Below, piece by piece: positions 17,426-28,869 of a DNA stretch of 28,976 bases. Made by a program: the position numbers and the translations under genes. The DNA comes from a virus, in the IMG/VR virus record IMGVR_UViG_3300045999_010060, positions 1 through 28,976 of that record; one strand, written 5' to 3'. The notes beneath the pieces are model-generated. The model was given only the letters and a program-made list of their open reading frames with translations, was not told where the DNA came from and ran no database searches. Position 1 is the stretch's first letter, and each line of letters begins with the position of its first letter.

Positions 17426-17567
17426 GCAGTTTCAAGAAGAATGGACTAATAAATATAAAAAGAGTATTAATTGCTCAGATCCAAAAGGATTCTCTCAACG
17501 TGCTCATTGTGCGGGGAGAAAAAAAAGAGCAAAAGGTGAGAGTACTAAATCAAAACCAGTTGAATAA
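17412..17567 (+). CDS. 51-residue basic two-cysteine protein with MKTFKQF N-terminus
   Basis: The frame from ATG 17412 to TAA 17565-17567 encodes 51 residues starting 'MKTFKQFQEEWTNKYKKSIN' and then 'CSDPKGFSQRAHCAGRKKRA'. It overlaps gp16 by 14 bases and its last base is the A of the next ATG (TAATG), which supports it as a real gene despite its size. The N-terminal peptide resembles the capsid-targeting peptide of T4 internal proteins (MKTYQEFIAEA); the basic 'C...KGFSQRAHC.GRKKR' tail could bind nucleic acid or metal. I recall similar 'NPKGFSQKAHCxGRKKR' motifs in other cyanophage proteins. Function unknown; packaging with DNA in the head is a guess. No clear ribosome-binding site is visible, so it is likely translated by coupling. 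Confidence 0.7.
   Translation: MKTFKQFQEEWTNKYKKSINCSDPKGFSQRAHCAGRKKRAKGESTKSKPVE
17448..17455 (+). promoter_or_regulatory. Possible internal late promoter box AATAAATA
   Basis: The box lies inside the 51-residue gene, about 110 bases before the 567-residue gene and could feed it and gp17. It encodes ordinary Asn-Lys-Tyr codons, so it may be fortuitous. Confidence 0.3.
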
Positions 17568-19270
17568 TGCCCAAGATCAAGTCACATAAAACAGTTGAGC
17601 AAATTGCAAAGAAGCATCGTCTTGATGTTTCTTTCATACAAAAGCAACTTGACATGGGAGAACCCATTGAGCATGAGCATACAAAAGATCATGATCTTGC
17701 CAAAGATATTGCTCTTCAGCACTTGGACGAAATTCCAGATTATTATACTCGTTTGAAAAAAATGGAAGCAGATGCCAAAAAGCATCACAAAAAATTTAAA
17801 GATGTTACTGAGGAAGGTCTTCGCGATTGGTTTGGAAAATCCAAATCAAAGGATGGAAAATCCGGTTGGGTCAATGTAGTGACTGGTGGAACTTGTGCAA
17901 GTGATGAACCTGGAGAGGGTGTCCCCAAATGTGTTTCATCTGCGAAAAGGGCAAGCATGACTCCAGCAGAAAGACTTTCGGCAGCAAGAAGAAAAAAAGA
18001 AGCAGATCCTGGACAACAACAAAAAACAGGATCTGCAAAACCAACCTATGTTTCTACAGATTCACCTAAGAAGAAAATGAAAGAAGAAATGGATGTGCAG
18101 GAAGCAAAAGATAAACCAGGCAAAGGTAGCGGAAAAAAAGATGCTTGCTACAGTAAGGTCAAGTCTCGTTATAGTGTCTGGCCAAGTGCATATGCTTCCG
18201 GTGCTCTTGTAAAATGCCGTAAAGTTGGCGCAGCGAACTGGGGAAATAAATCTGAAGCAGTTGAAGAACAAAGATACTGCCCTCTTTGCGATAAGAGGGA
18301 AACAAGATCTGAATGTTCGTATGGAGAAAAAGCCTGGGATAAGGTTTCTGTGAAAGACGAAGAATATTCAATGGCAAGATCGGAACTAAAAACCATTGTT
18401 AATGCTGTGAAGAGACTTCAATCAAAAGTTGGTAGGGGAGAAGGAGATCTTGAGGCATGGGTACAATCAAAAATTACCAAAGCAGCAGACTATATTGACA
18501 CTGCAGCAGATTATGTTAATAGTGGAGAAATGGAAGAGGCATGTTGGTCTGGATATAAGCAAGTTGGGATGAAAAAGAAGGGCAAAAAGATCGTCCCAAA
18601 TTGTGTTCCAGCAACAGAACAAACTATTCAAGATTTGAATGGAAATACTTTTGCGGAGGTCATTGACTTAATAAAACCAGATCCAATCAAAGGTTTTAGA
18701 TCTCAAGTCAAGGAAGCAACAAGACTCCAGGCACAAACTGGAAACGTAATTGCGGTTTCTCTTTCTTGGAGAGGTAAGTACTATTCTCTCAAGATGTTCT
18801 TCCCACAAGTAAAAATTCCAACTCGCAAAGAAATTAGTGATGAGTTACAGAAAGTATATCCTGGATGCATTGTAGTTTACCACTCAGTATCAGAAATTCA
18901 ACCTGGACAACCATTAATTCAACCATTTGGACCTCAAGGTGGCAGTTTTGCAAAACCAGGTCCAAGTAAAAATTATGTAAAAACTATGGGAGAAGGAGTT
19001 GAAGTTGATGAGGATTGGCAGAAGGTAAATCGTCAGGACAAGACAGATGGTTTAAGTCCAGAAGCAGTTAAAGCATATCGTAGAGAAAATCCAGGTTCAA
19101 AACTTCAAACTGCAGTTACTGAAAAGAATCCAGAAGGAAAAAGAGCAAAACGTCGTGCTTCGTTTTGTCGCAGAATGAAAGGTATGAAATCAAAATTAAC
19201 TTCTGCAGAAACTGCAAGAGATCCGGATTCAAGAATTAATAAAGCACTTCGTCGCTGGAACTGTAATTAA
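17567..19270 (+). CDS. Multidomain mosaic protein in the terminase block, function unknown
   Basis: A 567-residue, Lys/Arg-rich protein with at least six segments. Residues 1-75 ('KTVEQIAKKHRLDVSFIQKQ', then HEHTKDHDLAKDIALQHLDE) resemble what I remember as DUF5661. Residues 82-145 ('DWFGKSKSKDGKSGWVNVVT', C110, C122, 'MTPAERLSAARRKK') resemble DUF5872-like proteins. Residues 191-228 are a 'ACYSKVKSRYSVWPSAYASG' motif. A Cys cluster lies at C238, C241 and C250. Residues 265-350 are helical ('KITKAADYIDTAADYV'). Residues 394-442 form a domain shared with the 105-residue protein at 25975. Residues 483-567 ('DGLSPEAVKAYRRENPGSKL' ... 'SFCRRMKGM' ... 'ALRRWNC') resemble a C-terminal domain found in many phage proteins (DUF6321, from memory). 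It sits between gp16 and gp17. A packaged or DNA-associated virion protein is possible; no enzymatic motif was identified. Confidence 0.8.
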   Translation: MPKIKSHKTVEQIAKKHRLDVSFIQKQLDMGEPIEHEHTKDHDLAKDIALQHLDEIPDYYTRLKKMEADAKKHHKKFKDVTEEGLRDWFGKSKSKDGKSGWVNVVTGGTCASDEPGEGVPKCVSSAKRASMTPAERLSAARRKKEADPGQQQKTGSAKPTYVSTDSPKKKMKEEMDVQEAKDKPGKGSGKKDACYSKVKSRYSVWPSAYASGALVKCRKVGAANWGNKSEAVEEQRYCPLCDKRETRSECSYGEKAWDKVSVKDEEYSMARSELKTIVNAVKRLQSKVGRGEGDLEAWVQSKITKAADYIDTAADYVNSGEMEEACWSGYKQVGMKKKGKKIVPNCVPATEQTIQDLNGNTFAEVIDLIKPDPIKGFRSQVKEATRLQAQTGNVIAVSLSWRGKYYSLKMFFPQVKIPTRKEISDELQKVYPGCIVVYHSVSEIQPGQPLIQPFGPQGGSFAKPGPSKNYVKTMGEGVEVDEDWQKVNRQDKTDGLSPEAVKAYRRENPGSKLQTAVTEKNPEGKRAKRRASFCRRMKGMKSKLTSAETARDPDSRINKALRRWNCN

Positions 19271-20932: not shown

Positions 20933-21163
20933 ATGGATTTAGACAAGCAGATAAAACTTGGACATTTGTTACTCGCAGATAGAAAATGTAGAGTCTGCGG
21001 GGAAATGAAAAATTTAATAGACGGATTTTATAGAACAAGAAAAGATCGTGGTCCTGTTTCTTCATCATATTCATATGAGTGTAAGGAGTGTACGATAAGG
21101 AGAATAATAGGAAGTAAAAAGACTGTCTCCCGATCAACAAATTGGGAATATCCTGATTGGTAG
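20933..21163 (+). CDS. Small zinc-finger protein (CxxC-CxxC) between gp17 and gp18
   Basis: The 76-residue protein has two knuckles, C19-x2-C22 ('CRVCGEMKNL') and C50-x2-C53 ('CKEC'), separated by 27 residues with 'FYRTRKDRG' between them. This spacing fits a treble-clef or HNH/endonuclease VII-like zinc-binding fold, but I see no catalytic His-Asn-His set, so a zinc-binding structural or nucleic-acid-binding role is safer. The ATG directly abuts the gp17 stop (TAAATG) and no ribosome-binding site is seen, implying coupling to gp17. T4 has no gene here. The antisense reading frame over this region is a shadow. Confidence 0.75.
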   Translation: MDLDKQIKLGHLLLADRKCRVCGEMKNLIDGFYRTRKDRGPVSSSYSYECKECTIRRIIGSKKTVSRSTNWEYPDW

Positions 21164-25816: not shown

Positions 25817-25978
25817 ATGGATGATCTTTTAGACATGATTGCTGCTGACGAATCTCCTTCGCAGATTAGTGATAAGATTAAAGAACTTTTATTCGCAAAG
25901 TCTGCTGAAAAAATTGACGAACTTCGTCCCACAGTAGCAAACGCAATGTTTAATAGCGAAACAGAAGAGGAAGAATGA
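25817..25978 (+). CDS. gp67-like small prohead core protein
   Basis: This frame encodes 53 residues, starting 'MDDLLDMIAADESPSQISDK' and ending 'SETEEEE'. In T4, gene 67 lies directly after gene 20 and encodes an 80-residue prohead core component with a helical N-terminus and a strongly acidic tail. The pattern 'KSAEKIDELRPTVANAMFNS' (A..ID......A..F) resembles T4 gp67 'ARTIDLIKEEKIAIARNFLI'. Two (I/L)-x-E sites ('IKE' at 21-23, 'IDE' at 33-35) fit the T4 gp21 protease consensus, and T4 gp67 is known to be cleaved by gp21. Position, size and acidic tail support the call; sequence identity is low, so the assignment is tentative. It overlaps the next gene by four bases (ATGA). Confidence 0.65.
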   Translation: MDDLLDMIAADESPSQISDKIKELLFAKSAEKIDELRPTVANAMFNSETEEEE

Positions 25979-26292
25979 AATCATTCAAACAATTCATCTC
26001 AGAGTCGGTGAATATTTCCGGAGATTTTAACGGAAATCTTTACATCAACTCTCAACCAGAACCACAATCGGTTGGAGAAGAGTATGCTGCAGATGTTTTG
26101 TGGAATGGAAGTCTTTACCGAATGGAATTAACCAGCAAAACTGGAATTCCATCAAAACGATCTTTAGGTGAAGAGTTGCAGGCAGAGTATCCTGGCGCAA
26201 TTGTTCACCAGATTTATCCTATTGCAGAAAAGAACTGTAATATCAAAAAAGCAAGCAGATACCACCCATCAAAGTTGGAATGGATTGATTAA
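25975..26292 (+). CDS. 105-residue protein with capsid-targeting-like N-terminus
   Basis: The protein begins 'MKSFKQFISESVNISGDFNG'. The first ten residues resemble the capsid-targeting peptide of T4 internal proteins (MKTYQEFIAEA), and 'ISE|S' fits the (I/L)-x-E cleavage rule of the prohead protease gp21, which is encoded two genes downstream. Residues about 38-83 form a small domain also present in the 567-residue protein (W43, G45, Y48, I58-P59, E67-L68-Q69, Y72-P73-G74, I76-V77). The simplest reading is a small protein taken into the prohead with the core, trimmed there and kept in the capsid. This is inference; function is unknown. The overlap with the gp67-like gene supports co-expression with core proteins. 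Confidence 0.78.
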   Translation: MKSFKQFISESVNISGDFNGNLYINSQPEPQSVGEEYAADVLWNGSLYRMELTSKTGIPSKRSLGEELQAEYPGAIVHQIYPIAEKNCNIKKASRYHPSKLEWID

Positions 26293-26294
26293 TA

Positions 26295-27620
26295 ATGGCT
26301 CAGTGGAATATAACAACCCAAGACTACTTAAATCAAGAAAGAAGTCTTTTTGAGGTTAATGGTGTCGCAACCAGAGACGGTAAAATTGTAGATGAATATA
26401 ATAGATTTCCAGTTAGTATAAATTCTGATGCTTTTGGAAGAACAAGAGTATCAAATCCATTAACACTTTTTGATTCATCTCACAGATATAGAGACAATAA
26501 TCTTTGGGAGAGTTTAGTTGTAGGGACAGGTTCTACTGTTGGATTTACAACTACAGCAGGTTTGGTCAATATGACTGTGGGTGTTGGAAGCACCGCATCA
26601 GTTATTAGAGAAACCACAAAAGTATTTTCATATCAACCAGGAAAATCTTTGTTGACTATGAATACCTTTGTATTAAATCCACCAAAAGAAAACCTAAGGC
26701 AAAGAGTTGGGTATTTTGGTGCTGATAATGGAATATATTTTGAGGTTGATGGAACTACTGCGCATTTTGTGGAAAGAAGTTTGTCATTAGGAGTAGAAAC
26801 AAGAGTTGCTCAATCAAATTGGAATATTGATAAGTTAGACGGAACAGGTGTTTCTGGAATTACATTGGATTTAACCAAGGCACAAATTCTTTGGACGGAT
26901 ATTGAGTGGTTAGGACTTGGAAATGTAAGACTTGGATTTATAATTAATGGTAAGTTTGTTCATGCACACACTTTTCAACACGCAAATTTAATTCAATCAA
27001 CTTATATTACAACCGCATCACTTCCTTTAAGATATGAAATTAGTAATACTGGTATTACAACAAGTGCAAGTACGTTGAAACAAGTTTGCTCCACAGTAAT
27101 TTCTGAAGGTGGATATGAACTTCGTGGATTACAGCAAGCAGTATCCACTCCAATTACGGCACCAGTAGATTTGCCAACTCCCGCTGGAACATATTATCCA
27201 ATTATTTCTATTCGTCTCAAAGCACCAATTAATGGACAACCGGATAGATTGGATGCAATCGTTATTATGACTGCTCTATCAATTATGGGAACTGGAAATG
27301 GTCCTCAATATAATTGGCAGGTGAGAGCAAGTGCAACAACATCGGGAGGAACTTGGGTCAGTGCTGGAACAGACTCTGCGATTGAATATAAACTTGATGG
27401 AGGAACTGTAAGTGGTGGAAGAGTTTTAGCATCTGGATTCTTAACTTCCGCCAACCAATCATCACAATCAGTAGATATTCTTAAAGAAGCACTCTTCAAG
27501 TTTCAGTTAGAAAGAAATGGATTAACCAAAACTCCATATGAACTAACTTTAGTTGCTGCATCTGATACTGCAGGTGCTGATATTTTTGCTTCTATGGATT
27601 GGGAAGAAATTAGTAGATAA
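26295..27620 (+). CDS. Putative virion protein (441 residues) inserted before gp21, function unknown
   Basis: A 441-residue protein beginning 'MAQWNITTQDYLNQERSLFE'. The segment 'INSDAFGRTRVSNPLTLFDS' (about residues 42-61) is, from memory, a recurring signature in structural proteins of marine and other phages. The rest is rich in Gly, Ser, Thr and beta-prone stretches, with 'GYFGADNGIYFEVDG' near 147 and a C-terminal 'ADIFASMDWEEISR'. No signal peptide, membrane segment or enzymatic motif is visible. T4 has gene 68 at about this place; this protein is unrelated in size and character. It begins two bases after the preceding stop without a clear ribosome-binding site, so it is probably translated by coupling. 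A capsid decoration or head-fibre protein is one possibility, a tail-associated protein another. Confidence 0.72.
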   Translation: MAQWNITTQDYLNQERSLFEVNGVATRDGKIVDEYNRFPVSINSDAFGRTRVSNPLTLFDSSHRYRDNNLWESLVVGTGSTVGFTTTAGLVNMTVGVGSTASVIRETTKVFSYQPGKSLLTMNTFVLNPPKENLRQRVGYFGADNGIYFEVDGTTAHFVERSLSLGVETRVAQSNWNIDKLDGTGVSGITLDLTKAQILWTDIEWLGLGNVRLGFIINGKFVHAHTFQHANLIQSTYITTASLPLRYEISNTGITTSASTLKQVCSTVISEGGYELRGLQQAVSTPITAPVDLPTPAGTYYPIISIRLKAPINGQPDRLDAIVIMTALSIMGTGNGPQYNWQVRASATTSGGTWVSAGTDSAIEYKLDGGTVSGGRVLASGFLTSANQSSQSVDILKEALFKFQLERNGLTKTPYELTLVAASDTAGADIFASMDWEEISR

Positions 27621-27642
27621 TTTTATCTTAATTTGATTAAAT

Positions 27643-27650
27643 AATAAATA
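27643..27650 (+). promoter_or_regulatory. Late promoter box AATAAATA upstream of the 181-residue gene and gp21
   Basis: The box is in the 53-base gap after the 441-residue gene, 23 bases before the next ATG. It would drive the 181-residue gene and the coupled gp21. Confidence 0.68.
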
Positions 27651-27673
27651 ACTAAAAGTGTACTATAAAAATA

Positions 27674-28219
27674 ATGGCTCATAGACCGATAGGTGCTGGT
27701 ATTTCATTAACAACAGGTGCAGCATCAGCGATGACGACTTCTTTTACTGCACAAACTAATGTAGTAAGAGTTGTTGCCGTAACTGCTGGAGCATTTGTTG
27801 CAATTGGGACAAATCCAACATCTACAACCGCAGATTATTATGTTCCTGCTGGCGGAACTGCAACTCTTGCTCTCACTAAAGCGTCAAACAGAGTTGTTGG
27901 AGTAACTACTGGAACTACGACAATTATTGATTGTCCAGAGGGAACTCAAGCACCCTTTGGTGTTGGCGATTTCGTAACTCTTTCGGGATCTCAATATCAC
28001 AACTTTACTCATGCTGAAGTTCTTTCGGTGAATACAACATCTACTTATGATGGATATTTCCAGAGAAGATTTACTGTAAATTATAATTCCAGTGGAATAT
28101 TAACAGCATTTAATTCACCAGATGCAACTGTTTCTCTATCATATAGATTAGCAGCAAGAACTGAAGGTGGTGCTGGTACATTATATGCCCAACAAGTACA
28201 AATTTCAGGACAAGCATAA
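27674..28219 (+). CDS. Putative virion protein (181 residues), beta-rich, function unknown
   Basis: A 181-residue, Thr/Ala/Gly/Val-rich protein beginning 'MAHRPIGAGISLTTGAASAM'. The first about 80 residues ('VVRVVAVTAGAFVAIGTNPT', 'YYVPAGGTATLALTKASNRV') resemble small beta-sandwich proteins often found near capsid genes and are compatible with a surface decoration protein. The remainder ('FGVGDFVTLSGSQYHNF', 'YFQRRFTVNY') looks like a second beta domain. No catalytic motif is seen. The TAA stop shares its last base with the gp21 ATG, so production is linked to the prohead protease. It has its own late promoter box, unlike the 441-residue gene before it. I do not recognise a T4 counterpart. 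Confidence 0.72.
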   Translation: MAHRPIGAGISLTTGAASAMTTSFTAQTNVVRVVAVTAGAFVAIGTNPTSTTADYYVPAGGTATLALTKASNRVVGVTTGTTTIIDCPEGTQAPFGVGDFVTLSGSQYHNFTHAEVLSVNTTSTYDGYFQRRFTVNYNSSGILTAFNSPDATVSLSYRLAARTEGGAGTLYAQQVQISGQA

Positions 28220-28869
28220 TGAAACTTATTACCGAAGAAATCGAATCAGTAGAAGTCCTTACCGAAACGGTCAACGGTAAGAAGACTCTTTATATTCAAG
28301 GACCTTTCCTTCAAACAGAAGTTGTAAACAGAAACGGTAGAATGTACCGTTTACCTGTTATGGAAAGAGAGGTGAAGCGTTATACTGAGCAGTATGTAAA
28401 CAAAGGTCGTGCTCTTGGGGAACTTGGCCACCCAGATGGCCCAACAGTAAACCTTGATCGGGTTTCTCATAAGATTGTTTCACTTCAACGAGAAGGAAAT
28501 AATTTTATTGGTAAAGCACAGATTCTATCCACACCAATGGGTAAGATTGCTGAGTCACTTCTCAAAGAAGGAGTAACTCTCGGTGTTTCTTCTCGTGGTA
28601 TTGGTTCAGTAAAACCAAACAATGAGGGTTATACTGAAGTTGGTGAAGATTTTATGCTTGCAACTGCAGCAGATATTGTTGCAGATCCTTCTGCACCTGA
28701 CGCATTTGTTCAGGGAATTATGGAAGGTAAAGAGTGGGTTTGGGATGGAGGTATGCTTCGCGAAAAATTTGCAGAGCAAACTCAGAAGAGAATCAATACT
28801 CTTGTGGATCAAAAACTTTTAGAAGAGTATAAGTTGAGTTTATTCAATGAGTTCTTAAACTCATTGTAA
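28219..28869 (+). CDS. 21: gp21, prohead core protease
   Basis: gp21 is the serine protease that digests the scaffold and trims head proteins during prohead maturation (T4 family S80, cleavage after (L/I)-x-E). Recognition: 'IQGPFLQTEVVNRNGRMY' near residues 26-43; the catalytic His71 in 'GELGHPDGPTVNLDRVSH'; and the nucleophile region 'GVSSRGIGSV' with Ser124/Ser125. Length is 216 residues against 212 in T4. The C-terminus contains 'LLEEYKLSLFNEF', including (L)-x-E type sites that could allow self-cleavage. Its ATG overlaps the stop of the 181-residue gene (TAATG). Confidence 0.95.
   Translation: MKLITEEIESVEVLTETVNGKKTLYIQGPFLQTEVVNRNGRMYRLPVMEREVKRYTEQYVNKGRALGELGHPDGPTVNLDRVSHKIVSLQREGNNFIGKAQILSTPMGKIAESLLKEGVTLGVSSRGIGSVKPNNEGYTEVGEDFMLATAADIVADPSAPDAFVQGIMEGKEWVWDGGMLREKFAEQTQKRINTLVDQKLLEEYKLSLFNEFLNSL

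Follow-up and report, generated by a model that had tools for sequence, protein, structure and literature searches.

The closest described systems to the locus analyzed here are the internal proteins of phage T4 and several phage protein families that are already catalogued. In T4, the head genes are ordered 20-67-68-21 with nothing else between them, an arrangement taken from the T4 record that agrees with a first-pass annotation of the present DNA, in which gene 68 alone was said to separate gene 67 from gene 21. According to PMC9026906, the first 10 residues of T4 IPIII suffice for head entry; residues 4 and 7 carry most of the targeting, residues 8 and 10 serve processing, and gp21 cuts after L/I-x-E. 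For cyanophages, the literature describes the region between gp16 and gp17 as a known hot-spot and records the detection of NMNAT in virions of S-SM1, S-CREM2, S-SCSM1 and S-SZBM1. The families phrog_1645, phrog_1742 and DUF7243, to which genes of this locus belong, are likewise catalogued. A search of the open-licence literature found no description of a cyanophage targeting sequence, of exchange between two slots or of a fixed tag.

The window, which is the whole 28,976-base stretch of DNA analyzed, is a virus record with T4-like late genes. The virus is kin to phages of marine cyanobacteria and its head locus is cyanophage-like. Genes for gp17, gp18, gp19 and gp20 (PF07230 by family search) are followed by ORFs of 53, 105, 441 and 181 aa and then by gp21, in this order and all on the + strand. 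An endonuclease VII-like gene (phrog_4723) lies between gp17 and gp18 at 20933-21163. The features from the 53-aa ORF to gp21 are as follows.

25817..25978, + strand: 53-aa ORF in the place of gp67, labelled gp67-like because of its position only; left border of the slot; matches phrog_14164 and phrog_2088, both of unknown function
25975..26292, + strand: p105, partner gene of p441; matches phrog_1742 (E 9.9e-41); overlaps the 53-aa ORF by 4 bases
26295..27620, + strand: p441, 441 aa; virion structural protein family phrog_1645
26295..26357, + strand: p441 tag, residues 1-21; near-invariant, with L18-x-E20; predicted to be disordered
within p441, + strand: predicted ConA/GH16-like jelly roll at residues 45-273, then a C-terminal beta domain (model and fold matches)
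27674..28219, + strand: p181, 181 aa; DUF7243 (PF23891, phrog_682); resident gene preceding gp21
within p181, + strand: predicted beta-sandwich with an FCCH-like barrel at residues 68-157 (model and fold matches)
28219..28869, + strand: gp21 prohead protease; PF03420 (E 1.2e-36); right border of the slot

The 441- and 181-residue ORFs lie on the + strand at the positions given in the first-pass annotation, and they are not chance ORFs because both match known families: p441 matches the phrog_1645 profile over residues 1-439, which is full length (E 1.6e-164), and p181 scores 92.1 bits against PF23891, for which the cut-off is 27. The overlap behind the proposed translational coupling of p181 to gp21 is also confirmed, with base 28219 common to the p181 stop codon and the gp21 ATG. 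A tRNA search of the window returned none. Matches to CTATAAATA with at most one mismatch numbered 15 against 15.0 expected; since this count is at chance level, promoters were left unused as evidence.

The relationship of these genes to the slot was evaluated by a census of gp20-gp21 intervals, 151 of them distinct, taken from IMG/VR contigs, three named phages and the window itself. Since p441, p181 and gp21 served as queries in collecting them, the intervals form a biased sample, whose counts are not population frequencies. A gene of the 181-aa type is present in 108 of the 151 intervals and one of an 88-aa type in 37, with neither in the remaining 6; the p105+p441 pair occurs in 50, and 4 hold an untagged p441 relative that lacks p105. 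Among 78 distinct tagged p441s on contigs, 52 are located before p181/gp21, 23 before gp17, and 3 are unplaceable. In the isolates S-RIM8, S-SRM01, Syn33, S-SZBM1 and S-CREM1, the pair is found between gp16 and gp17. The p105+p441 pair is a two-gene cassette that occupies one of two slots, either gp67-gp21 or before gp17. The census and the two slots of the pair identify p181 as the local gene and the pair, at 25975-27620, as the newcomer. The first-pass annotation had described the 441- and 181-residue genes as two extra genes inserted together. That view holds for p441, with the amendment that the 105-aa gene was omitted, and fails for p181, the usual occupant of the gene-68 position, which is present without the cassette in 67 of its 108 intervals. 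Four loci (L178, L179, L180 and L194) have gp20-gp21 intervals of ~5 kb in which neither the 181-aa nor the 88-aa type was found.

The resident gene, p181, is a clear member of DUF7243/phrog_682 that shows no difference from the family, in which function is unassigned, and it shares with T4 gene 68 the position between genes 67 and 21. Its predicted model is all-beta (pLDDT 91.3), as the first-pass annotation had expected, and the inserted barrel at residues 68-157 resembles the FCCH domain of UBA1 (Z 11.5, rmsd 1.6, 78 aligned), with a fainter likeness to phage endosialidase domains (Z 6.8 to 7.9). Searches with p181 yielded weak Heparin lyase I and antibody matches at best (E 0.011), and Foldseek returned none at E 0.001 or better. 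When 88-aa-type proteins are aligned by hhalign with the outer part of p181, the result is E 0.035, or 0.011 with the barrel columns omitted, which is suggestive of homology between the two. One protein of the 88-aa type, SSZBM1_195, has an emPAI of 2.66 in the virion data tabulated for S-SZBM1 in PMC9146016, and two such proteins between gp67 and gp21 in S-SCSM1 are annotated as virion proteins. Because of its position and the virion detection of 88-aa types in the same slot, we infer that p181, the resident of the gene-68 position, is a minor head component; in other phages the 88-aa type takes its place.

The two genes of the cassette go together. In viral contigs with room upstream, tagged p441 lies directly after p105 in 75 of 75 distinct cases, 3 further tagged p441s beginning too near a contig end to be counted; reciprocally, p105 is followed by p441 in 72 of 72 distinct p105s with room downstream, edge fragments on contigs being set aside. 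None of the five complete untagged p441 relatives directly follows p105 (0/5), 6 of the 11 untagged relatives having been set aside as contig-edge fragments (L022, L083, L072, L114, L087 and L181, with L087 open to the contig start). One isolate departs from the pairing: in S-SCSM1, the gene that follows p105 encodes a different sort of virion protein, of 249 aa. The full-length phrog_1645 homologues of S-RIM8, S-SRM01, Syn33 and S-SZBM1 have the same tag and partner as p441 of the window and differ in the slot that they occupy. A 567-aa gene before gp17 (window 17567-19270) weakly matches the p105 domain (phrog_1742 at residues 388-436, E 0.006), and relatives of its product and of p105 match one common profile.

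The start of p105 resembles a T4-type capsid targeting sequence. As in T4 IPII and IPIII, residues 4 and 7 are aromatic, residue 8 is Leu/Ile and residue 10 is Glu. Of 78 distinct relatives, selected from residue 15 onward and thus without the pattern residues, 76 show the pattern, and the other two match from an internal Met. The gp21-type site falls after residue 10, and a second L-x-E is conserved in 75 of 76. A slightly general form of the pattern was then used to scan every ATG-initiated ORF of 40 aa or more in T4 (97% of the record), Syn33 and S-SZBM1, with expected counts derived from internal positions. It selects 3 of 551 ORFs in T4 (ipII, ipIII and 61.1; 0.39 expected), 2 of 620 in Syn33 (p105 and the NMNAT/cytidylyltransferase; 0.19 expected) and 3 of 743 in S-SZBM1 (NMNAT, p105 and SSZBM1_192; 0.23 expected). 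The first-pass annotation had placed the two proteins on the head surface and tied them to prohead maturation, and the targeting-like start of p441's partner supports a link to prohead assembly. Several observations count against T4-type targeting: T4 ipI falls outside the start pattern, p105 of S-SCSM1 has Met instead of Leu/Ile at residue 8 in addition to its different neighbor, and no p105 homologue is listed as detected, or labelled as virion, for S-SZBM1 or S-SCSM1. Unlike IPII and IPIII, p105 went undetected in two virion proteomes, and it is itself conserved and paired with a far larger protein.

In p441, residues 1-21 are almost invariant and variability climbs from residue 22 among 22 dereplicated members, a set for which residues 1-5 took part in member choice. 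A constant start with a variable remainder is also the arrangement of IPII and IPIII, from which the tag differs in sequence and in its length of ~20-21 residues, and the residues at 4, 7, 8 and 10 do not follow the IPIII pattern. L/I-x-E is present at residues 18-20 in 78 of 78 distinct members, compared with ~0.9% per position over whole proteins, and this gp21-type site sits where conservation ends. A propeptide removed by gp21 would have this appearance, and so might an anchor peptide. A likeness of the tag to the capsid-protein propeptide is a lead only. The motif NQE[KR]x[LIFM]xE, chosen after both tag and capsid protein had been seen, is found among 3838 distinct ORFs in 82 of 83 p441 tags and in 64 hits to capsid proteins, with no others, and these lie within the first 70 residues in 64 of 67 capsid proteins. 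The corresponding comparison of the tag to the gp23 propeptide failed in an unbiased ungapped ranking, where the best capsid protein ranked 56 of 3755 and was not singled out; the mean score against capsid proteins was 24.7 (n=67), and 60 shuffles, scored on 30 of the 67, averaged 21.3 and peaked at 28.4.

Behind this constant 21-residue tag, p441 bodies are exchanged, and p105 mostly stays with its slot. Among the 666 pairs formed by 37 loci, 226 have gp20 at least 85% and gp21 at least 80% identical, and within these flank-conserved pairs body identity is below 50% in 131 and 70% or more in 92, with 3 pairs at 50-70%. Across slots (950 pairs), the median p105 identity is 58.7% and no pair exceeds 84.6%, with bodies reaching 96.6%. 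On trees of 69 pairs, 50 from the gp67-gp21 slot and 19 from before gp17, p105 needs a minimum of 4 slot changes and the p441 body a minimum of 12, and a single clade for the 19 pre-gp17 pairs is rejected in both cases, more strongly for bodies (p 4e-51) than for p105 (p 0.013). Given these numbers of slot changes, p105 also moves, but less often than the bodies. In six cross-slot pairs, p105 DNA identity is below that of the body, with the step at or before the tag end, and in two of the six the tag DNA identity is as low as that of p105. If p441 is indeed a payload, its bodies travel from phage to phage and from one genomic position to another at this locus, with the carrier mostly staying; S-RIM8, Syn33 and S-SZBM1 are isolates that carry the pair.

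The tagged p441 homologue of S-SZBM1, SSZBM1_190, was detected in purified virions by 3 peptides with 7.1% coverage and an emPAI of 0.23 (PMC9146016, Table 1), which upholds the virion association implied by the first-pass annotation. In the same table, emPAI values are 27.64 for the capsid protein, 2.83 for the portal, 0.30 for gp21, 0.26 for the cytidylyltransferase and 0.14 for the tail tube protein. Because the tail tube protein, of which many copies are expected, reaches only 0.14, emPAI is a poor copy count here, and for that reason low copy of p441 is not claimed. These values bear on the suggestion that p441 and/or p181 decorate the capsid by coating its lattice after expansion. Decoration of this kind, one of the two forms proposed in the first-pass annotation, lacks support and is unlikely in view of the gap between SSZBM1_190 and the capsid protein, a comparison weakened by the tail tube value, and of the near-total replacement of bodies, which would be odd for a lattice protein. 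The position beside gp21 and the capsid genes, the small all-beta p181 and the emPAI of SSZBM1_195 would fit it. Fold comparison is uninformative against decoration, even though no phage decoration protein is among the p441 matches listed.

The pairing of p105 with p441, the start pattern of p105, the L/I-x-E site of the tag, the swapping of bodies and the presence of SSZBM1_190 in virions together suggest that p441 is a virion protein of exchangeable type which p105, acting as carrier, helps to load by way of the prohead core, a reading that we hold tentatively and at slightly under an even chance. Under this model, p105 would use its T4-type targeting sequence to enter the prohead core and would then be cut by gp21, and the tag, ending in a gp21-type site, would bring p441 to the core with the help of p105. 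After cleavage, the exchangeable, lectin-like p441 would stay in the head, and it may act on host glycans or leave with the DNA.

The main rival to core loading is suggested by the predicted structure of p441, which is all-beta (pLDDT 80.7), again in line with the first-pass annotation. The best row for the jelly roll at residues 45-273 is 3d6e_A (Z 17.9, rmsd 2.4, 169 aligned), and the likeness to GH16 is one of fold, which does not imply function. The catalytic motif of GH16 is E-x-D-x-E. In 36 members, the likely catalytic strand of p441 has W/F/S/Q at residue 200, D/N/E at 202 and E/R/Q at 204; because these acidic residues vary, glycan binding is favored over cleavage for the p441 body on the basis of the model. 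A profile search of PDB sequences with p441 found nothing up to E 10, and Pfam has no family for it, its 36 relatives giving six scattered families with a best E of 0.011. Among viral models, the whole chain resembles proteins of archaeal tailed viruses, including a 418-aa HFTV1 protein (TM 0.62/0.64). Because of its 418-aa length, this BFVD entry is taken as HFTV1 gp20, whose gene directly follows that of the capsid protein. The sequence link is marginal (profile E 0.029 among 11 proteins) and, unlike p441, the archaeal virus protein has no tag; HFTV1 gp20 has been found in virions, and the main text on that virus names it once and assigns it to no part of the structure.

An outer head fibre or adhesin, the fibre form of the first-pass proposal, would accord better than core loading with the lectin-like fold, the exchange of bodies and the tail-fibre-like partners of untagged relatives, and the whole-chain likeness to HFTV1 gp20 also fits it. 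The tag would then anchor p441 on the capsid or collar, p105 would aid assembly and the swapped body would bind cell or particle glycans. Also consistent with such an adhesin is a p441-body segment in S-PM2d173, two genes from S-PM2d175, which PMC9910659 assigns to a putative adhesin block. This alternative is possible but rather doubtful, since p441 is strictly paired with p105, whose start resembles a prohead-core targeting sequence, and since a gp21-type site exactly at the end of conservation would be needless in an anchor peptide. Even if p441 were an outer fibre, the swap pattern would mark a likely determinant of particle binding.

The relatives without a tag bear on both readings. HMO-2011 gp65, from a podovirus of Puniceispirillum, is 66% identical to p441 over residues 44-441, and it differs in having neither the tag nor an adjoining p105, which counts against core loading as do the fibre-like partners of untagged relatives, the failed unbiased test of the tag and the biased sample. 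The same gene (L003:4655-5914), in a SAR116 phage, points to transfer of the p441 body across phage morphotypes. In the five complete untagged relatives, the upstream partner has tail-fibre PHROG matches or the same start as such proteins, and is placed directly before in 4/5 and one gene away in 1/5. This untagged architecture, in either slot and with the same body, is represented by L102:1772-4161, L152:1174-4572, L173:5494-7410, L175:4796-7077 and L085:9273-11185. These partners, together with the tail-fibre-like genes that adjoin the pre-gp17 slot in S-SCSM1, raise the further possibility that p441 is the tip of a tail or neck fibre, distal to a shaft made by another gene, with its position among head genes incidental. 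That arrangement is unlikely, as 0 of 75 tagged p441s have a tail-fibre-like partner and the window-type pair has head and packaging gene neighbors in both slots.

A second cyanophage protein has the same kind of start. All 57 distinct relatives on contigs that were compared with the Syn33 NMNAT show it, which makes this virion protein a useful control for the pattern, and such a start would account for the repeated detection of NMNAT in virions. A broader and more doubtful version of the preferred reading is that T4-like cyanophages use T4-type targeting sequences to load their heads with NMNAT and, from two interchangeable slots, with a lectin-like payload on a carrier of p105 and a cleavable tag, the payload being head-borne or injected and exchanged between phages as a cartridge would be. 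If true, this would explain how NMNAT reaches cyanophage virions and would allow head-packed phage proteins to be predicted from sequence by a rule. Loci of NMNAT with this start include L230:46376-47533 (Syn33_182), L239:30389-31477 (SSZBM1_140), L324:820-2049 (SSCSM1_91) and L244-L323. T4 gene 61.1 (L232:18966-19130), with a 54-aa product and a targeting-like start, may encode a further T4 internal protein. SSZBM1_192 (L240:22628-23125), located directly before p105, also has a targeting-like start; it is absent from the detected list of S-SZBM1, and its C-terminal stretch resembles that of SSCSM1_29, a virion protein.
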